Assembly (NCBI GenBank): GCA_947627215.1
Contig: CANQVD010000006.1
Location: 62,001 to 126,000 of the forward strand
Direction of reading: 5' to 3'
DNA length: 64,000 bases
From: an uncultured Eisenbergiella sp.
GTDB lineage: Bacteria > Bacillota > Clostridia > Lachnospirales > Lachnospiraceae
In this document: one piece after another, positions 1,271 to 22,054 of the stretch
How positions within the stretch are numbered: the first letter of the stretch is position 1
Layout: each line of letters opens with the position of its first letter
Translations under genes and position numbers: made by a program
Notes under the pieces: generated by a model
The model's database searches: none
What the model was told of the DNA's origin: nothing
The model's input: only the letters and a program-made list of their open reading frames with translations

Positions 1271-2347
1271 TCATGATCTGTTTTGGAACACCACCCGTCT
1301 CTGCACCTGAAAACTGACAAAGAACAACACCGTATCGACCATTATTTTACACAGTGTCTTTGATACCGGCAGCAAAAGCGACAACACCGATACCAGCCCG
1401 GCGGAACACGCTGCCTGAATGACGCACAACGCATAATACCGCCACAGCGATTTCTTCACATCGCCGGATGCTCCGAACACCACGTTGCGATTCACAAAAT
1501 AATTATAAAGCGAGGAAACAGCACGCGCAAACGCAGTCGCGATCCAGATGCCGGACACCCCCGGGATCCAACACGACAGCAAATGAAACAGACTGATATC
1601 GATCACAGATGCGCTCAGGGAGGAAAACAAATACCGGAAGAACTCCCCAAACAGGAGCCCGTATATCTGTACAGAATCCTGCAGCGGGCGGAAATGCGTT
1701 CCGCTGTTGTTTTCCAGATAGACCGTTTCTATGGGGATTTCCTCAATGGGAATCTTTCTCCGTACAGCCTCGATGAGCATGGAGGTTTCATATTCAAAGC
1801 GCTCTCCCTTCAGGGTCAGAAACGCAGGCAGAACGGCCGTAGTGCCTCCCCGAAGCCCCGTCTGCGTATCCCGGATGCGTTTCCCATACAGCAGCCGAAA
1901 CCAAAATCCCGTCATCCGGTTGCCGAAGCTGCTTTTAAACGGCACATTCTGTCCGCCAAAATCCCGCGCCCCCAAAAGCAGGCATTTCTGTCCTGCCCCG
2001 ATTTCCGACAGCCGCCGGTCCATTCGGACCACATCCTTCACCAGATGCTGACCGTCCGAATCAACAGTAATCACACCGCATACGTCTTCTGCCTTTCCGA
2101 AACGGTTCAGGAACTCGTGAAACCCGTTTTTCAACGCCCGCCCTTTTCCGCAATTGACAGCATGCTTCAAAACAACACAACCCATATCCGCAAGCTGCAT
2201 AAAAATCGGTTCATACAACTCTCCGCTGCCATCATCCACGATAATAATACGGCGGAATCCCTCCTCGAACAGCGCCCTCACATATGCTGCCAGCTTTTCA
2301 TCCGGATGAAGCGAAGGAATCAAAATTACGCTTTGCCTCATTTTCAT
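1271..2347 (-). CDS. Glycosyltransferase family 2 fused to a C-terminal GtrA-like membrane domain
   Basis: Residues 1-222 are a GT2 (GT-A) domain with VDDGSG near residue 37 and a VDSDGQH metal-binding motif near residue 95, the layout of dolichyl/polyprenyl-phosphate glucosyl- or mannosyltransferases. Residues about 232-358 form four hydrophobic segments with the NYFVNRNVVF pattern of the GtrA family, which is linked to moving polyprenyl-phosphate sugars across the membrane. One protein could therefore charge undecaprenyl phosphate and present the sugar outside. The start at 2347 is chosen over an upstream in-frame start because AGAGGTG lies 4-5 bases ahead. A promoter at 2408-2436 lies just upstream, so this gene and the ABC gene may form a separate transcript. 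Confidence 0.88.
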   Translation of the reverse strand: MKMRQSVILIPSLHPDEKLAAYVRALFEEGFRRIIIVDDGSGELYEPIFMQLADMGCVVLKHAVNCGKGRALKNGFHEFLNRFGKAEDVCGVITVDSDGQHLVKDVVRMDRRLSEIGAGQKCLLLGARDFGGQNVPFKSSFGNRMTGFWFRLLYGKRIRDTQTGLRGGTTAVLPAFLTLKGERFEYETSMLIEAVRRKIPIEEIPIETVYLENNSGTHFRPLQDSVQIYGLLFGEFFRYLFSSLSASVIDISLFHLLSCWIPGVSGIWIATAFARAVSSLYNYFVNRNVVFGASGDVKKSLWRYYALCVIQAACSAGLVSVLSLLLPVSKTLCKIMVDTVLFFVSFQVQRRVVFQNRS

Positions 2348-2407
2348 AAAACACCTCTGCCAAAATCCGGTCACGCTGAACGCTTCCGACAGGTAAAATC
2401 TGGATTT

Positions 2408-2436
2408 ATTCTATCATATCCCTCCGGTTCTTTCAA
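2408..2436 (-). promoter_or_regulatory. Sigma-A-type promoter with extended -10, ahead of the GT2-GtrA gene
   Basis: On the minus strand a TTGAAA -35 (2431-2436) is followed by a 17-base spacer and TAGAAT -10 (2408-2413) preceded by TGA. It sits in the 175-bp gap between the GT11 stop and the next start, 60 bases before the ATG. The same TTGA-A/17/TGA-TAGAAT layout recurs at 35931-35959. Confidence 0.6.
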
Positions 2437-2522
2437 CTAAACCTATCCACTTTTCACGCTTTTCTCCAAAGCACAGGTATCGGATCCTGTGAACAAAATG
2501 AATCACAATTTTCCCCGGTCTC

Positions 2523-4112
2523 TCAGGAAATCACCTTTCCCTCCTCATCGATCAGCACCCATCCCGCCCAGAGCTCTTTCATTTCCTCCGGCCTGGCCGT
2601 CTGGCTGTTCTTATGCTTCAGCGGCCGAATCTTGATCTTGTCCGGATCCGGATTCAGTCTCGCCCCCCAGAAGCTGAACGTGGAGTTGGCGCAGATATTA
2701 TGCCTGCAGCAATTCATGAGCCGGATATCCAGGAAACTGTTCTCCCCGGTATTCCAGTCCACCACGGTACAGCGTTCCGAAAAAAGCGCGCGTTCCCGGC
2801 CTTCTGCTTCTCCCGGCATCAGCTTTCGGCCGTCTCCCTGTCCGCCCTCCTGATTGACTTTCCGATCCTCCTTCCGGAAGCTATGCAGTTTGCAGAATTC
2901 CCTGGCGTATCCGCTGTCGTCAGAAAACACATAAAAATGTGCGTCCGGATATCTCTCCAGAATATAACGGACCGCGGTCTCATAGTAAGCGTCCGTACAG
3001 ATTCCTCCGAACAGCGCCGCATTGTCCGGATCCAGGTAATCTCCTCTGCGCAGATGAATGCTGACGGATTCCTTTTCAGCCATTTCCTCACGGATCATTT
3101 CATTCAGCAGATCGGTAAATATGCCGTCCAGATGCTCCTGCGCAGATTTTTCTTCGGGCAATTCCGTTGCATTCTTTGCGCTTTCCTCTCCTAACGCGGC
3201 ATTCAGATAATAAGACGACAGGTTCTTGAAATCCGGTTCACGGATTGTCCCTTTGGATTGATTCTCATTTTCCTCCTCTGATTTATCAGTTTTTTTATAT
3301 TCTATATCTTGAATAGTCTTTCTATTTTCATTATTGTTTTTATTTTTTTGCAATTTCCCTTCTATATATATATTATTATTTGTATTATATATATTTTTTG
3401 CATTACATATATTTTTGATATTATTCTTATTTTCTGAATTAAATATGTTTTTTCTATTTTCTTTATTTTCTGAATTATTTATATTATCACAATTATTTGT
3501 TTTTAATATATTTTCGTGTTTTTCTGTATTATTTGTAAAATATCCGTTTTTTAAATATTTTGAATTTTTCGTTCGATCCCTGATTTTTGAGTTATATTCC
3601 TCATTCTGTTCCTTTATTTTCAGTTTATATATATCTTTTTCAATATTTTCCTGACTTTTTATTCCATATTCATCCTCCTGCCGCCTGCTGTTTTCCCTCC
3701 ATCTTTCCGGAAAGCTGATCACCTCCCGCAGCATCGGCAAAATATCCGCGTAATATTTTTCACATGCCCAGTATCCGCTCAGATACATATCATCAAACCG
3801 AAAAATCTCCGGATGATACATTTCACTTTCCCGGAAATACCGGTTCTGCCCCGGCAGGCGGCGCTTCAGCTTTCCCCACAGACTGTCTGACCCGACCAGC
3901 CGTGCCTTTTCCGCCTCCGTGCACACCTCCATGGGCAGATCCACAAAGCGCGTCAGCTCCAGCTTCCTGGGTGCGGCCATTTTTTTCTGGACCTCTTCCG
4001 AAAACCAGGACAGATCCAGCTTCACGTCTTTTCCCAGCGATTTCATTTTCTGATACAGCGCATACTGCTGAAGCTGATTTCCCAGTCCGCCCATCACCTC
4101 TATGATGATCAT
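2523..4112 (-). CDS. Glycosyltransferase family 11 (alpha-1,2-fucosyltransferase type) with a large Asn/Lys-rich insert
   Basis: This 529-residue protein begins with the GT11 nucleotide-binding signature GGLGNQLQQYALY and carries HLRRGDYLDP (residues about 353-362) and NSTFSFWGARLNPD, all typical of GDP-fucose-dependent alpha-1,2-fucosyltransferases. Usual GT11 length is about 290. The GT11 at 21176-22054 is 292 and aligns by eye on both sides of the excess. The extra sequence is mainly residues 145-330, in the linker just before HxRRGDY, plus a charged insert of about 30 residues after SFRKEDRK. The reading frame stays open throughout. The start at 4112 (MIIIEV) matches family N-termini and follows a GGAAAGGCGG stretch. 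The longer frame to 4187 has no family support. Confidence 0.88.
   Translation of the reverse strand: MIIIEVMGGLGNQLQQYALYQKMKSLGKDVKLDLSWFSEEVQKKMAAPRKLELTRFVDLPMEVCTEAEKARLVGSDSLWGKLKRRLPGQNRYFRESEMYHPEIFRFDDMYLSGYWACEKYYADILPMLREVISFPERWRENSRRQEDEYGIKSQENIEKDIYKLKIKEQNEEYNSKIRDRTKNSKYLKNGYFTNNTEKHENILKTNNCDNINNSENKENRKNIFNSENKNNIKNICNAKNIYNTNNNIYIEGKLQKNKNNNENRKTIQDIEYKKTDKSEEENENQSKGTIREPDFKNLSSYYLNAALGEESAKNATELPEEKSAQEHLDGIFTDLLNEMIREEMAEKESVSIHLRRGDYLDPDNAALFGGICTDAYYETAVRYILERYPDAHFYVFSDDSGYAREFCKLHSFRKEDRKVNQEGGQGDGRKLMPGEAEGRERALFSERCTVVDWNTGENSFLDIRLMNCCRHNICANSTFSFWGARLNPDPDKIKIRPLKHKNSQTARPEEMKELWAGWVLIDEEGKVIS
3230..3660 (-). other. Extremely AT-rich, low-complexity in-frame insert inside the GT11 gene
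   Basis: Bases 3361-3480 contain only 14 G or C out of 120, whereas flanking genes are clearly GC-rich. The minus strand encodes residues about 155-295, almost all Asn, Lys, Ile, Glu and Tyr, with imperfect repeats of NIxNSENK and NAKNIYNT type. Homopolymer T7 runs on the plus strand (for example 3342-3348) could be slippage sites. No stop or frameshift breaks the frame. The hydrophobic plus-strand ORF opposite it is only the shadow of AAT/AAA codons. Confidence 0.85.
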
Positions 4113-4199
4113 TTCCGTTTTCCGCCTTTCCTTTGACCGCTGGCCCGTCCGGACCGCCCGGCCTTCTCCCGCCGGCAGCCCTGCCATTTTGATTCGCCT

Positions 4200-5735
4200 T
4201 TATCCCAGCCGGTCCTTTACCAGCCGATACAGATACCGGAACTCCTCCGTCCGCCCGAACGCCGTCAGAAAAATCCCGTTGAATACGCCGGTGATAACGC
4301 CCATCATCAGAATAAATTTCCAGACCGTCACCTGCGGCATGATCACCGCCTGCGCCGGGAGCAGAATGGCCAGCGAAACGCCGATCACCGCCAGATATTT
4401 CAGGGAATCCCAAAAATAGGAGGCCGCCGACCGCCCGAAGCAGACCCGATAAATGATCACGGGTTTTGTGAGGTTCGCGATCAGCCCCGAAACCACCGTC
4501 CCGATAAAAATGCCGGCCAGCCCGATGCGCTGTACCAACAGGACAGAAAGCACGAGATTCACCGCACCCTGCAAAAGCGTCAGATATTTATCCTGCTCGA
4601 ATACGCCGGCCGCCGTTTTAAAATTGGAAAGCACGATCCGCTCCCCTTTGAAATAATAATCCGTCAGATACCAGGCGATGGCCGCCGCGGGCAGCACCAG
4701 CTCCTTCCCGATGAAACGGCCCGCCAGCTCCAGGAGCGGCGACAGCAGCAACAGGAATCCCACCGCCGAAAAACCGTAGATCCATACGGCAAAAAAACGG
4801 TATACCCGAAACAGCGCCAACTGTTTTTCCCGGCCCTCCGTAGCGATCAGGTTGCCGAAGCCGGAGATCACGGAATTGAAGATCACATTCACATAGTTGG
4901 AAACGGAACTGACGATGAGCTTGTAATTGCCGAGCAGTCCCACCATGGCCACATCCAGGAATGAGGAAATGATGACCTCGTCGGTCTGCAGCCGGGCCAT
5001 ATCCCCCACCCGGTGCAGCACCAGCGCTTTTGTATTGCGCACCATCAGCCCCGTTTCTTCCTTCGTCAGCGGTTCCACCTGTTTCTCTTTCAAGAGCGGA
5101 TACCGACGGTCCAGATAACGGCTGATGAAAATCTTCTGGGCCAGCTCCACCCCGGCCTGGATCAGCAGATACAGAAGATAGTTCGGCAGCGTCAGGAGCG
5201 CCAGCATCTGCAGCGCCACCGTGACCATCTTCGTGACGGTGATGGTGTTGGTCTGGATGTAATTCTTCTGTTCCGCGTTGGCCAGACTGTATTTCCACGC
5301 CACGAAATAGGAGCTCACGGTGTTGAACAGGAAGATCAGATAATAAAGCCGAAGCTGTTCCGCCGATATCTCCTGCGTATGCACGATCGCGGGCAGAAAA
5401 GGCAGCAGCGCCAGCCCCAGCACGGCAATGACGACAGCGATCACCCGATACGCCTTTTTGTACAGCAGCATATAGGACTTGACCTTTTCCTTTTCTCCCC
5501 TCGCCACAGGACCGTACAGGCTGAAATTCACCGCCGTCCCCACTCCCAGCTCCGCGAAGGAGAGCATGGTCAGCACCGAGGTATACAGATCCTCCACGCC
5601 GAACAGCGTTTCATCCAGCTTCATCAGAAAAATGCCGCGCAGCGCAAAGCGAAGCAGCATGGTCGCCACGTTGCCGCCCCAGCCGAATATGATGTTTTTC
5701 ACCGCATACTTCACCCTGCCCGCGTTTTTTTCCAT
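4200..5735 (-). CDS. Polysaccharide flippase, MOP/MATE superfamily (Wzx-like)
   Basis: This 511-residue polytopic protein has about 12-14 hydrophobic segments. The N-terminus VKYAVKNIIFGWGGN is typical of polysaccharide-transport proteins of Gram-positive capsule loci. The family moves undecaprenyl-diphosphate-linked repeat units from the inner to the outer leaflet. It lies between a GH88/105-like gene and the GT11 gene. GAGGAGGAT precedes the ATG closely. It is one of three candidate flippases in the window, together with the ABC exporters at the left edge and at 19372-21129. Substrate specificity cannot be read from sequence. Confidence 0.88.
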   Translation of the reverse strand: MEKNAGRVKYAVKNIIFGWGGNVATMLLRFALRGIFLMKLDETLFGVEDLYTSVLTMLSFAELGVGTAVNFSLYGPVARGEKEKVKSYMLLYKKAYRVIAVVIAVLGLALLPFLPAIVHTQEISAEQLRLYYLIFLFNTVSSYFVAWKYSLANAEQKNYIQTNTITVTKMVTVALQMLALLTLPNYLLYLLIQAGVELAQKIFISRYLDRRYPLLKEKQVEPLTKEETGLMVRNTKALVLHRVGDMARLQTDEVIISSFLDVAMVGLLGNYKLIVSSVSNYVNVIFNSVISGFGNLIATEGREKQLALFRVYRFFAVWIYGFSAVGFLLLLSPLLELAGRFIGKELVLPAAAIAWYLTDYYFKGERIVLSNFKTAAGVFEQDKYLTLLQGAVNLVLSVLLVQRIGLAGIFIGTVVSGLIANLTKPVIIYRVCFGRSAASYFWDSLKYLAVIGVSLAILLPAQAVIMPQVTVWKFILMMGVITGVFNGIFLTAFGRTEEFRYLYRLVKDRLG

Positions 5736-5762: not shown

Positions 5763-7196
5763 TCACCCGTTCCGCCATTCCTCCGCGCCGAAAAAATCCA
5801 GGACACTCCCCTGTCCCCAGGGATACCATCCGTAAACCTGCGGATATTCTCCAAATCCTCTGCACTCTCCGGAGCAGTCCTGCACCAGACCGCCGTCCAC
5901 GGACCGTTCCAGCGCCGCATACAAAAGCTGCAGGGACATTTCCACCGCATCCGGATCCAACTGTCCGTTTTCCGACAAAGCCTGCTGCCCGCCGGACCGG
6001 CATCCGCCCGGGCTGCCCCCGGGAACACCGTACCGACCGGCCCTGTCCCCGAGAAGACCGCAGCGCAGTCCCAGGGATATGGCCGCGCCGATCATTCCCT
6101 CCGCGGAGCTGTCCCGGTTTCCTTCCCTTGCGGGCAGGAGCCAGGAAAATCCGCCGTCCGTCCTCTGGCAGCGCAGCACCGCCCGGATCAGTGCCCGATA
6201 CGCGCCATATATCGTTTCAAACGCGGCCCTGCTGCCCGGCCACCCGGACGCGGCCTCTTTTGCGGGATCCGATATCCCCCCGGCAAAGCCGTCGGATCCC
6301 GCCTCAGACATGCCGCCGGATATGCCCCCGGCCGCATCCTTCCACGTTTCCTCTACCGCCTTTTTCTCCAGCCAGGGCAGGCTCTCCGCCATCCCCTTCA
6401 GCAACCAGCCGCAGGCTCTTCCCCAGCCCACCGCACCGTATTTCACGCCTGTCTTTTCATGGTATCCGTGATAGGGAAGACCGCTTTGTGCATCCATTCC
6501 CTTTTCCAGAAACCGCAAAAGCTGCAGCGCGCCCAGACGGAAAAGCGCTTCGTCCCGCTTCAGCGCGCCGTACCGGCACAGAAACGGACATACCATCCCT
6601 ACGGTATCCGCAAAGATCCAGTCGGGATGCTGCGGCCGATACGCCAGGATCCCGTCCGATGTCCTGGGCGCCCGCCTGAGCCACTGCGCACATGCCTCCT
6701 GCGCGTCCCGGCAGGCGGTCCGCACGCCGCCCCGTTTGCCGCCAAAGGCTTTTGCAGCCCTTCCGATCAGGCTGTCCCTTCCGGCTTCGGCGCTTTTTTG
6801 CCGCCCTGACCCGGCCAGGTCTCTGTTTCCGCCCTCTTCCGCCGATCCGGCAGCGTTTTCTCCTCCGTCCTGCGGCTCCAGCAGGCCCTCGATCCACAGC
6901 GCCAGCGCACCGTTCATCACATTGTCCACAGAATGGATCCGATATTTCTTCCGCCCCCACTGCTCCAGATAGGCTGCAGCATCCAGCAGGCCCTGTTGCT
7001 GTCCGCTTCCGGCGAAGGCCGTCAGCAGCCCTCCCGCCAGCATGGCATTGGGCCAGGAAAACGGGTCGATGGGCGCCTGCTTCTGCCGCAGCACCAGCCG
7101 CCGGACCAGCCGTTTCAGCCGTTCTCCGTCCGTGATCTCAGGATACAGAAAGAGCTGCCGCCCGGCCGTATCCATCATTTTTTTCAGATCCGCCAT
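5763..7196 (-). CDS. Glycoside hydrolase family 88/105-like protein (unsaturated uronyl hydrolase fold)
   Basis: This 477-residue protein has the order of conserved blocks seen in (alpha/alpha)6-barrel unsaturated glucuronyl/galacturonyl hydrolases such as YteR: SWPNAML, FADTVGMVCPFLCRYG (Asp197 is the likely catalytic acid), GLPYHGYHEKTG, GWGRACGWLLKGMAESL and DSSAEGMIGAA. No signal peptide or membrane segment is visible, so it should be cytoplasmic. Family enzymes remove unsaturated uronic acids left by polysaccharide lyases, which is unusual inside a synthesis operon. Three Gly/Ala/Ser-rich stretches (residues about 107-150, 287-325 and 383-405) look like linker expansions. Activity on this glycan is not shown by the sequence. 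Confidence 0.75.
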   Translation of the reverse strand: MADLKKMMDTAGRQLFLYPEITDGERLKRLVRRLVLRQKQAPIDPFSWPNAMLAGGLLTAFAGSGQQQGLLDAAAYLEQWGRKKYRIHSVDNVMNGALALWIEGLLEPQDGGENAAGSAEEGGNRDLAGSGRQKSAEAGRDSLIGRAAKAFGGKRGGVRTACRDAQEACAQWLRRAPRTSDGILAYRPQHPDWIFADTVGMVCPFLCRYGALKRDEALFRLGALQLLRFLEKGMDAQSGLPYHGYHEKTGVKYGAVGWGRACGWLLKGMAESLPWLEKKAVEETWKDAAGGISGGMSEAGSDGFAGGISDPAKEAASGWPGSRAAFETIYGAYRALIRAVLRCQRTDGGFSWLLPAREGNRDSSAEGMIGAAISLGLRCGLLGDRAGRYGVPGGSPGGCRSGGQQALSENGQLDPDAVEMSLQLLYAALERSVDGGLVQDCSGECRGFGEYPQVYGWYPWGQGSVLDFFGAEEWRNG

Positions 7197-7212: not shown

Positions 7213-8205
7213 TCATCCCTTTTTCCACAGATGATACAGCCCCATATAGAGCGCGGGACTCATCAGGAACAGCGCCGTTTTGAGGCGATATCCTCCCGGC
7301 AGCTGTGCCCGGGCCCCCGGCGTCTGCAGCGCTTTTCGCACGGTATCCCGACATTCCTTCACACAGTCCCCATAACGACTCCGCTCACGGCCTGACAGCG
7401 CGGACAGCTTGCCGGCCGCCAGCATGGCGGAAACCGCCAGGATGCCGTTCACCCGCGCCCGATTCCCCGGATATTCCCGTTCGATCATTTCCGCCGCCAG
7501 CCGCCAGCTTCGGATCTCATCCATATACGAGGGCGTAAAAGGCCGCAGCATGGCCCCGTTCTGATTGACGCGGTAAAAATATCCGGGATAGGAGAGGCGC
7601 GCCGCCCGATCCAGCTTCGGCAGCAGATCCATCAAAAACATCATATCCTCGCCGATGCTCAGATCCTCCCGAAACCTCGTATCCCCGACGAACGCCTTGC
7701 GGTAAAGGATTCCCCAGCACCGGGTAACCCCATGCAAAAGACAGTCTGACAGCCAGCCTTCCCGGCCATAGAGCTTCAGGCCATCTTCCGAAAGGTCCGT
7801 TCCCGCCGGGCCGGAAGGGCTCTGCTCCTTTCCGTTCCATGTGAGAAAATCGCAGGCCGCAAGATCGGCCCCTGTCTCCTCAAGTCCCTTTGCCAGAAGC
7901 TCCAGAAGCCGTTTTTCGATCCGGTCGTCCGCATCCACAAAGGTGAGAAATTCCCCGCGCGCCTCCCCGATGCCCTGATTGCGCGCGGCGGATACGCCCT
8001 TTTTCCCGCAGACCGCATAACGCACGCGTTTATCCCTCTGCTCCAGCCGTTTCGCCGCCCGGTCCGTTCCGTCCGTGGACCTTTCATCCACAATCAGGAC
8101 CTCCAGATCCCGCCGGCTCTGGACCAGAATACTGTCCACACAGGTCTCCAGCCATGCCGCCCCGTTATAGACCGGAACGATCACACTGATCTTTCCCTTT
8201 TCCAT
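7213..8205 (-). CDS. Glycosyltransferase family 2
   Basis: This 330-residue protein starts with KISVIVPVYNGAAWLETC, the GT2 nucleotide-sugar-binding strand, and has VDADDRIEKRLLELL with the DxD-type metal site near residue 90. The C-terminal part is amphipathic and lacks clear membrane spans. It probably adds one sugar to the lipid-linked repeat unit on the cytoplasmic face. Donor and acceptor are unknown. One base pattern stands out: VDERSTDGT replaces the usual VDDGSTDGT, so the first Asp-rich motif is altered at residues about 39-47. It is closely spaced with the pyruvyl transferase upstream (10 bases) and the GH-like gene downstream (16 bases). Confidence 0.88.
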   Translation of the reverse strand: MEKGKISVIVPVYNGAAWLETCVDSILVQSRRDLEVLIVDERSTDGTDRAAKRLEQRDKRVRYAVCGKKGVSAARNQGIGEARGEFLTFVDADDRIEKRLLELLAKGLEETGADLAACDFLTWNGKEQSPSGPAGTDLSEDGLKLYGREGWLSDCLLHGVTRCWGILYRKAFVGDTRFREDLSIGEDMMFLMDLLPKLDRAARLSYPGYFYRVNQNGAMLRPFTPSYMDEIRSWRLAAEMIEREYPGNRARVNGILAVSAMLAAGKLSALSGRERSRYGDCVKECRDTVRKALQTPGARAQLPGGYRLKTALFLMSPALYMGLYHLWKKG

Positions 8206-8215
8206 CCGTCCCGCC

Positions 8216-9418
8216 TCACTCTCCGCACAGCGCCCGGATCACATCGGCCCCTTTTTTCGCCCGTTCCCGGTATTCCGGCATGACCTGCTGCAGACGGTCG
8301 CGGACGGACGTCTCCCGTTCCAGGAGCCATTCAAATGCACGGACCAGTTCTTCCCCTTTTTCCATCTGCTGCACCGTAATCACATAATGCTCGTCGCTGC
8401 CGAACAGATCCTTCGCGATGCCCCTGGCCTTCACCGAATATCCCGCCGCCAGCGTGGGCACACAGCTCGAATAGGCCGCGATGGTGGCATGGGTCCTGGC
8501 CCCCACAAAAAAACGGCACCGGGCGATAAAGCCCTTCAGCTCCGCTGCGGAAGCATCCTCCACGAGCACGACCCGGCCGGTCCCGGCGAAGCGTTCGTAC
8601 AGCGACCGCAGCGGCTTCCTGTCGTCGCCGCCCTTCCATACCACGTGGGGGATCAGCGCCACGCTAAAATCCGTCTGTTCCAGGATATGGGAAAGGAGCG
8701 CCGCATAATTTTCCATGACAACGCCGGCCTTTTTCTCATTTTCCACGATCATGGGACTGATATTCAGCCCCACCGTCTTGTTTTCCTTCCACCCCGCCGG
8801 CAGCGGAAGATATTCCGTTTCCAGTAAAAAAGCGGGATCCGGGTACAGGAACAGCCGTTCCGGAGGGAGCGCCTGCCGCAGCGCCTCCCAGGTGATGCTC
8901 TCCCGGGCCACAACGGCATCATAGAGCCGCAGATCCTCCGCAATATCCGGCCTCTTAATCAGCTCCGGTTCGATGGAACAGCCATAGAGCAGCGTCTTCG
9001 CGCCCTGGCGGTGAAACATCCGGTTGCTCATGATGAGCCGCTCCAGCATATTTTCATAGCAATAATTGTCCCCGCCGATGGAAATGTTCAGCGCGTGCAG
9101 ACGCTTCCCGCACACCGCCCGGTAGCGGTAGCGCATATAGCTCTCCGGATCGTGCAGGAAATGCTTTCTGATATAGTAAAAAGCATGAACCGGCAGGCTC
9201 GCCTCTACATGCCTTTCTTCGATGATCTCCGCACACAGCCCGGGAAGGGAATACCTGTCATCCTCAGCCTTTCTGCTGGTGATGAGGACCGCCGGCCTGG
9301 GAAGCATCCGGCACAGACAGCCGGCAATGGCTTCACTGCCGTGATTGTCGCTGCCCGCATGCATATACAGTACAATTTTGTCATGTTTCATACAGTTCCC
9401 ATCTCCTGATATCCGCAT
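8216..9418 (-). CDS. Polysaccharide pyruvyl transferase family protein
   Basis: The 400-residue protein has the N-terminal YMHAGSDNHGSEAI block and the C-terminal VGARTHATIAAYSSCVPTLA block typical of the CsaB/WcaK pyruvyl-transferase family, in which an Arg and His near the C-terminus bind phosphoenolpyruvate. Family members add ketal-linked pyruvate to a sugar residue, giving an acidic polymer. The ATG at 9418 is chosen because GGGAGGAG sits 5 bases ahead. The ATG at 9391 (MKHDK) fits family N-termini better but its AGGAG is 11 bases away, so it remains an alternative. A similar protein could also act as a pseudo-glycosyltransferase. Confidence 0.85.
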   Translation of the reverse strand: MRISGDGNCMKHDKIVLYMHAGSDNHGSEAIAGCLCRMLPRPAVLITSRKAEDDRYSLPGLCAEIIEERHVEASLPVHAFYYIRKHFLHDPESYMRYRYRAVCGKRLHALNISIGGDNYCYENMLERLIMSNRMFHRQGAKTLLYGCSIEPELIKRPDIAEDLRLYDAVVARESITWEALRQALPPERLFLYPDPAFLLETEYLPLPAGWKENKTVGLNISPMIVENEKKAGVVMENYAALLSHILEQTDFSVALIPHVVWKGGDDRKPLRSLYERFAGTGRVVLVEDASAAELKGFIARCRFFVGARTHATIAAYSSCVPTLAAGYSVKARGIAKDLFGSDEHYVITVQQMEKGEELVRAFEWLLERETSVRDRLQQVMPEYRERAKKGADVIRALCGE

Positions 9419-21175: not shown

Positions 21176-22054
21176 TCACAATACGATCATCTCTTTCGTA
21201 TAAATATCCACACAGGCCTCCCGCACGCCGTTTATCCCTTCCGGATCCACATTCAGCCAGCGCTTCGGGGCGATCACCCGTTTCCCGGGATCCGCGTTCA
21301 GCCAGGCGCCCCACCAGGAGAACGAGCTGTTGGCGAGGATGTGGTGACGGCAGCGGCTCATCAGATACAGATCCGCATACCCCGCATCCTCTCCGTTTCC
21401 TTCTACCATCACGAAATCCGCAGCGGCATATTTTTCTCTGACCCACTCCGGATCGTTGGAAAAGAAGAAGAACGCGGCCCCCGGAACCAACTGCCGCATC
21501 CGGGCGATGGCGGACGCATAATAGGCATCCGTGCAGATCCCCTGATAAAGCGCGCGGTGCTCAGGATCCAGATAATCTCCCCTGCGGATATGAACGCTGA
21601 CGGAGGCGCACCCGAGGATCCGCTCCTCCATCGCCCGCATCCGCGCATCCGGAGCGAAATTCCGAAATCGGAACGCTTCCCGCACCTGACCGGCGATGTC
21701 CGCAAAATATTTCTCGCTCTGGTAATACCCCAGAAACAGAGCCGGCTCCCGGACGAAAACCTCCGGATCGAAATTGCTGCTCTTTTCCCGATATGACAGA
21801 TTCTTCCTCCCAAAAAGCTTCCGGCGGATCCTCTGATCCGGCCGCATGCCGGAATCTGTCAGACCGATATATTCTTCCCTGGACAGCCGCTCATAGGAGA
21901 CGCCGAAGACATCCAGCATCTTCCTGCGTTCTCCCGGCCCGTAACAGGTGAAATCGTCTATTTTCACTTCTTTTCCCAGGGACTTCAGCTTCAGATAAAG
22001 CGCATATTCAAACATCTGATTGCCCAGCCCGCCGGACAACTGCACCGCAACCAT
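21176..22054 (-). CDS. Glycosyltransferase family 11 (alpha-1,2-fucosyltransferase type)
   Basis: This 292-residue protein is a canonical-length GT11: AVQLSGGLGNQMFEYALYLK at the N-terminus, SVHIRRGDYLDPEH in the middle and LANSSFSWWGAWLN near the C-terminus. Those motifs bind GDP-fucose in characterised homologues. The start at 22054 has GAGGAG 6 bases ahead. The open frame extends 60 codons further into the upstream gene but is not used by the family. It serves as an internal yardstick showing that the GT11 at 2523-4112 carries a large insertion. Confidence 0.92.
   Translation of the reverse strand: MVAVQLSGGLGNQMFEYALYLKLKSLGKEVKIDDFTCYGPGERRKMLDVFGVSYERLSREEYIGLTDSGMRPDQRIRRKLFGRKNLSYREKSSNFDPEVFVREPALFLGYYQSEKYFADIAGQVREAFRFRNFAPDARMRAMEERILGCASVSVHIRRGDYLDPEHRALYQGICTDAYYASAIARMRQLVPGAAFFFFSNDPEWVREKYAAADFVMVEGNGEDAGYADLYLMSRCRHHILANSSFSWWGAWLNADPGKRVIAPKRWLNVDPEGINGVREACVDIYTKEMIVL

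Follow-up and report, generated by a model that had tools for sequence, protein, structure and literature searches.

The GT11 fucosyltransferase FutC of Helicobacter pylori is phase-variable via simple repeats and frameshifting, and the alpha-1,3/4-fucosyltransferases FutA and FutB of the same species are taken here to be GT10 enzymes, as distinct from the GT11 protein of this study. Heptad repeats in FutA and FutB are described as a molecular ruler, the number of repeats reportedly determining which of the O-antigen chains receive fucose, and changes in their length have been ascribed to recombination between the loci and possibly to slippage (PMC2583950). In Plasmodium falciparum, Asn-rich low-complexity regions are reported to be coded by AT-rich codons (PMC7534687).

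The window, that is the whole 64,000-nucleotide stretch of Eisenbergiella DNA that was analysed, contains a GT11 gene with a long AT-rich spacer in the linker before its HxRRGDY motif. The protein shares its family with FutC, yet differs from it in that no frame break was seen in the window GT11 or in the expanded linkers of its relatives. Unlike in P. falciparum, whose genome is AT-rich throughout, the AT island lies here within a bacterial gene that is otherwise GC-rich, and such islands are confined, in the sample, to GT11 and a GT2 glycosyltransferase. The likeness to P. falciparum consists in Asn-rich, low-complexity sequence and AT-rich codons (PMC7534687). FutA and FutB may serve as the nearest working analogue found, being likewise fucosyltransferases with an in-frame region of variable length (PMC2583950). 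Their 7-aa repeats, however, are described as C-terminal and as accompanied by a 5' poly-C on/off tract (PMC2583950), whereas here the variable region is the linker before HxRRGDY, its repeats are degenerate and no such tract was seen. In the literature searched, the coverage of which was partial, no description on point of such a spacer was found, and its absence from print is not claimed.

On balance, we favor reading the region as a fast-evolving, hydrophilic and probably disordered GT11 spacer whose length changes in whole codons, with selection acting on the open frame and on hydrophilicity. Judged by its sequence, the enzyme that carries it appears intact, with the conserved family columns kept: the PF01531 profile match reaches 62.2 bits (Pfam cut-off 23.9), and in an alignment of 63 sequences there are 55 invariant columns, including H378, R380, R381, G382, D383 and N501-G508. 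The enzyme presumably works, with predicted alpha-1,2-fucosyltransferase activity, and the HxRRGD motif is taken here to be the donor-site motif of GT11. A solved-structure profile search with the protein gave a single match, which was unrelated (E 0.088). Genus matches to the protein break off near residue 431 and restart near residue 471 (compare the GC-rich insert in Table 1).

Table 1. Coordinates of the GT11 gene, the parts of its spacer and the neighboring cluster genes in the window
Feature	Position	Strand	Details
GT11 (alpha-1,2-fucosyltransferase-like) gene	2526-4187 plus stop	minus	554 aa; PF01531 E 6.2e-17
AT-rich Asn/Lys/Glu/Ile-rich core of the linker insert	3258-3662	minus	residues 176-310; 18.8% GC; open frame; AT-ending codons
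Tandem repeat in the core	3392-3485	minus	period 36 bp, 2.6 copies; TRF score 116
Second extra linker piece, ordinary GC	3105-3257	minus	about residues 311-361, about 50 aa; GC 0.41-0.50; insertion rows against G011 and G008
GC-rich insert, C-terminal domain of GT11	2772-2864	minus	residues 442-472, 31 aa; GC 0.62, GC shift +0.18
Wzx-like flippase	4200-5735	minus	no Pfam family; NCBIfam WZX_like below cut-off; 70-74% identity to the genus matches listed
GH88-like protein with GC-rich loop inserts	5763-7196	minus	PF07470 E 1.3e-21; alignment
GT2 glycosyltransferase	7213-8205	minus	PF00535 E 8.8e-32; loop GC-normal here, AT-rich in some relatives
Polysaccharide pyruvyl transferase-like gene	8219-9418	minus	PF04230 E 1.8e-25

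An earlier, sequence-only reading of this DNA had described an AT-rich, Asn/Lys-rich in-frame insert in the GT11 gene, and the insert is real: positions 3361-3480 do hold the 14 G/C that had been claimed, as compared with a lowest 120-bp count of 41 elsewhere in the window (insert and edges excluded, 10-bp steps) and a minimum of 23 per 120 bp in its own genome (400 kb sampled as 20 stretches of 20 kb). The GC content of the core (Table 1) stands against 54% for the GT11 gene outside the linker, and that of positions 3230-3660 (20.9%) against 56.5% for the whole window. On the coding strand, the core consists of 238 A, 91 T, 48 G and 28 C and has no stop in frame, while the two remaining sense frames contain 8 and 26. 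Dinucleotide shuffling, repeated 5,000 times, never gave an open frame (mean 14.2 stops), which bears out the statement that the frame is kept open within a GC-rich gene. The insert also enlarges the linker before HxRRGDY as stated, preceding HLRRGDY of the PF01531 protein, although its size had to be corrected: the linker measures 217 aa, and its strongly AT-rich part accounts for about 135 of these. A further GT11 at 21176-22054 indeed has a short linker, of 25 residues between comparable landmarks rather than the roughly 20 given before. Because the third positions of the core (63 A, 51 T, 14 G and 7 C) are AT-rich too, its AT-richness is not merely the price of Asn and Lys; the Ile codon is ATA in 11 of 15 cases in the core vs 1 of 15 in the remainder of the gene, linker excluded.

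For the tests of hydrophobic residues and tandem repeats, the window linker was reduced to its 405-bp core, and the hydrophobic expectation (residues FILMVWYC) was obtained by drawing codons from the third-position composition with stops excluded. The core contains 30 hydrophobic or aromatic residues where 72 are expected from composition, together with 34 Asn (14 expected) and 22 Asp plus Glu (7.5 expected). Hydrophobic residues lie under the composition-only expectation in all 11 loops, with P<0.01 in ten of them (L006, P=0.10), and therefore selection appears to hold the spacer hydrophilic. In keeping with the flexible spacer that had been proposed, the charge-hydropathy index is -0.37 for the core vs +0.12 and +0.02 for the flanking domains, and by this index all 18 loops are classed as disordered, L006 barely; the spacer is probably disordered. 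Slippage, which had also been suggested, is borne out for the window copy by a tandem duplication at a lag of 36 bp, where the core scores 31 and the best of 200 codon shuffles only 23, and an 18-bp TRF row with a 66% match spans 3367-3485. Tandem repeats beyond all 200 codon shuffles were found in four of the 18 loops, namely in the window (36 bp), L012 (9 bp), the GT2 of G005 (36 bp, GC-rich) and the GT2 of G001 (9 bp); since the other 14 are without a clear tandem repeat, L008 being marginal (4/200 shuffles), slippage is not shown for most loops, and as a general mechanism it may be proposed. Among the GT11 linkers, regular repeats are clear in the window and in L012, marginal in L008 and not seen in the six others tested. 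The idea that repeats are confined to the cluster was rejected, as tandem repeats are common in the ORFs of the sampled genomes.

Linker length was measured from FP to HxRRGDY, identical linkers being counted once, by a landmark method that requires both landmarks in one open frame; it would miss a frame-broken copy, yet all 11 genus orthologues found were measured. The window GT11 protein was matched in 12 of the 13 genus genomes searched (its own included), and an orthologue is present in 11, as G009 has no match and G012 only a paralogue-like form. The linkers of these orthologues, which come from related species, measure 217 (window), 97, 64, 58, 55, 52, 32, 23, 22, 22 and 22 aa, so that six reach at least 52 aa and G001 and G008 are natural short-linker relatives (22-23 aa). 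Length thus varies between species with the frame kept, as the sequence-only reading had anticipated, and the insert is not of one length in all homologues. The other relatives in the linker table (mostly Lachnospiraceae, paralogues included) have linkers of 22-31 aa, except for G119, a genome of another genus, with 81 aa; altogether, the 72 distinct proteins include seven linkers of at least 50 aa and 65 shorter ones. None of the seven expanded linkers, which come from different species, is out of frame, and because the G011 ORF, which has an ATG of its own, stays open for 367 aa, the stops reported within some genus matches, such as that of G011, are harmless to the gene. Eight loci in which the landmark pattern was unmatched (L078, L085, L086, L096, L121, L122, L123 and L126) stand outside the linker tables; the match spans of the first four (837-909 bp) and the ORFs of L121, L122 and L126 (324, 310 and 297 aa) indicate no large expansion. 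In a tree of 72 rows, nine genus members form one clade (support 100/95) of six expanded and three short linkers (22, 23, 32, 52, 55, 58, 64, 97 and 217 aa), in which the sisters L007 (64 aa) and L010 (23 aa) differ (pair support 100/97), and G119 falls outside it, grouping with Candidatus Eisenbergiella sequences whose linkers measure 22 aa (99/97). The label expanded or short requires five changes on this tree, at least three of them forced by well-supported branches, and linker length has therefore changed several times, gains and losses not being separable.

Base composition shifts with the linker as well. Linker GC minus rest-of-gene GC averages +0.03 (SD 0.07) for the 65 short linkers and ranges from -0.05 to -0.27 for the seven expanded ones, of which six have a third-position shift between -0.28 and -0.44 (L006, -0.03); the short linkers, taken as a mean, show no AT excess at third positions. 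Two short members of the clade are also AT-shifted (L011, 22 aa, -0.25; L010, -0.16), and in L011 the 20 codons ahead of the linker are low too (GC3 0.30); L006, at 52 aa, is hardly shifted (-0.05), and G005, at 32 aa, is not shifted, with a linker GC3 of 0.78, so AT-richness and expansion are separable. The shift is centered on the linker: in the clade plus G119 (n=10), the mean GC3 shift is -0.26 in the linker and -0.22 in the linker tail, as compared with +0.07 and +0.09 in the 50 other orthologues, and per flanking segment its size is at most 0.11 in the clade plus G119, with little difference between the groups. In the sampled own genome, the mean GC of the gaps that separate ORFs is 47% (202 gaps; lowest 23% over 74 bp) and other inserts are GC-normal or GC-rich, one of them in the same protein, hence relaxed drift alone does not readily yield 18.8% GC; pure drift to AT was rejected on the gap average and because the amino-acid counts depart from what composition alone predicts. 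The AT-richness may stem from slippage on an A-rich seed or from selection at the DNA/RNA level. Such selection for AT would favor slowly translated rare codons at a domain boundary, an internal promoter or unstructured mRNA, and we consider it unlikely as the main explanation. It is consistent with the extension of the shift to synonymous sites and to the linker tail, with the use of AAT, ATA, TCA and ACA well above that in sampled ORFs, with the AT-rich though unexpanded linker of L011, and with 11 promoter-like sites in 2300-4400, nine of them in the core, vs 3.4 in whole-region shuffles; AT-rich DNA would, however, be expected to give such matches, and shuffling distributes the AT over the whole region. 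AT-richness is moreover not conserved, as seen in the G005 linker and in the 50 orthologues outside the clade, which average above their gene, and the GT2 loop of the own genome is GC-normal.

The GT11, GT2, pyruvyl transferase-like, GH88-like and flippase-like genes of the window form one cluster, the set being shared by most genus stretches examined, and relatives of these cluster genes lie close to the GT11 of G119. Across 146 reciprocal-best ORF pairs (from the parts of the own, G011 and G008 genomes that were sampled), 25 insertions of at least 10 aa were found. Seven of these rows are shifted in GC by -0.29 to -0.32 and trace to four genes, all of them either a GT11 or the cluster GT2; the shifts of the other 18 range from -0.08 to +0.23. 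The GT2 loop, measured in nine genomes (own, G001, G003-G008 and G011; G002 not included), is AT-shifted in G011 (-0.37), G007 (-0.22), G008 (-0.20), G001 (-0.15) and G003 (-0.11), and not in the own genome, G004, G005 and G006; the longest GT11 spacer is therefore found alongside an ordinary GT2 loop. In the stretch of G010 that was examined, the GT2 was not found. A scan for AT-rich inserts over 2.12 Mb and 1,544 ORFs no shorter than 150 aa, in samples rather than whole genomes of five organisms, each relative's sample deliberately including the cluster-bearing contig, returned 21 ORFs at a loose setting. Five ORFs passed a strict filter, the cut-offs of which were set after a first look, and these are the GT11 of the own genome, G011, G119 and G010 and the GT2 of G011; the GT2 (GC 0.20) and GT11 (0.28) of G008 were found at the loose setting and fell short of the strict rule. 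Within the sequence sampled, AT-rich spacers are restricted to GT11 and GT2. That hypervariable AT-rich spacers in two unrelated glycosyltransferases of the cluster are a selected diversification device, in which length and sequence of a disordered spacer, and not an on/off frame, would tune the glycan while a locus-specific DNA-level process or selection would keep it AT-rich, strikes us as quite unlikely.

Further observations concern the same neighborhood. The GH88-like protein has GC-rich loop inserts, one of 43 aa, that are missing from most of nine relatives aligned, its G001 version carries a repeated AGSENAGAKQ unit, and that of G004 (L131:5134-6654) has a Lys/Asn/Glu-rich C-terminal tail of more than 100 aa that is missing from nine other sequences aligned. 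In the GT2 of G005 (L133:12197-13270), a GC-rich 6-aa repeat of the DNSVDR/DNPADR type with a 36-bp period occupies the loop that is AT-rich in some relatives. The part of the contig before the window (C6:1-60000; L104, L183 and L184) is low in GC, with 42% in L183 and L184 and many AT-rich segments in L104, compared with the window, and several L104 ORFs resemble glycosyltransferases by eye.

A slender likelihood is also given to a length-tuned ruler, in which linker length would set acceptor reach or chain-length preference and vary adaptively. Length does vary while the enzyme is kept, with conserved columns in the 11 genus orthologues (22-217 aa), close relatives differ greatly in linker length while family columns are conserved, and the heptad repeats of FutA and FutB offer a reported precedent (PMC2583950); the spacer position differs, however, from that of their C-terminal heptads, and most relatives measured have linkers of 22-31 aa.

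Frame switching had been proposed as well, and a contingency locus in which slippage at A7 runs turns the enzyme on or off is in our estimate very unlikely. The core has two A7 runs, and runs of at least A7 occur in four of the seven expanded linkers (longest A8), but codon shuffling gives an expectation of 2.5 for the core, in line with the two seen, runs at least 7 long are common (66 of 239 sampled own genes), and the offsets of the A7 runs vary from species to species. Earlier thought notable, the T7 runs at 3290 and 3343 are ordinary, the window having 25 homopolymers of 7 or more. Over the region of the window gene, no repeat unit below 9 bp was returned by TRF at a score of at least 30, and neither by this nor by comparison of A7 runs with codon shuffles was a hypermutable simple repeat beyond chance found in the window GT11. 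With the expanded linkers in frame, even though the landmark method would pass over a broken copy, and with A7 runs at chance level, the data lend no support to on/off phase variation.

A mobile or imported in-frame fragment, possibly common to GT11 and GT2, is highly improbable. The composition of the segment is unlike that of the rest of the gene, but no other protein match to it was obtained at E<=10, and the best of 34 weak AT-rich DNA matches (contig C40, E 8.5e-4) extends into a gap between ORFs; no other copy was found in the own genome (about 97% complete) by protein or DNA search. Phage and plasmid matches span the C-terminal part only, and no viral contig was matched. For some pairs of a GT11 and a GT2 loop, the alignment is better than with codon shuffles (L012 with the GT2 of G008, z 7.2), and 28 12-mers are common to at least two loops, where 200 shuffles average 7.6 with a maximum of 21; these pair alignments, however, include periodic sequences, and the 12-mer excess includes homologous GT11 linkers. 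Shared words specific to GT11 and GT2 are borderline at k=9 (60 seen, 10 of 300 shuffles having as many) and show no excess at k=10-13 (48 to 105 of 300 shuffles having as many; four seen at k=12, 105/300), and a shared GT11/GT2 loop element was dropped as the excess of such words is not clear. Four of the loops share the peptide NSEN. A template repeat of a DGR, nearly identical to the segment, was not found in a DNA search of the genome. Two reverse transcriptase matches lie in that genome (G000:C57:18333-18953 and G000:C3:66781-67386), and L101:14821-15590 is an array with a recurring 'FQSTRSHERD / HPLSRAGP' translation and periods of 67-199 bp, which may be a CRISPR-type repeat array read as an ORF. 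An assembly artefact or a decaying gene is barely credible, as the feature, although its own genome is a 108-contig assembly, is also present in other assemblies such as G011 and G004, the frame is open against 14 stops expected, and the family columns are intact.

In the favored reading of a selected, hydrophilic spacer, the segment is located in the linker before the putative donor-site motif of a GT11 in a polysaccharide cluster and changes length by whole codons, by in-frame tandem duplication (slippage) where the origin is traceable. Selection would maintain the open frame and the hydrophilic residues, and codon choice within the spacer would either escape the genome's GC-rich norm or be pushed away from it. 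Low-complexity inserts rich in Asn are usually tied to AT bias across the whole genome; here, a single linker in an otherwise GC-rich bacterial gene is concerned, with AT-rich spacers in two lineages separated on the tree and in one neighboring glycosyltransferase, and in no other sampled ORF by the strict filter. The locus may thus offer a clean natural comparison for the birth of low-complexity spacers, and a way to ask whether the length of a glycosyltransferase spacer is a knob for surface-sugar diversity.
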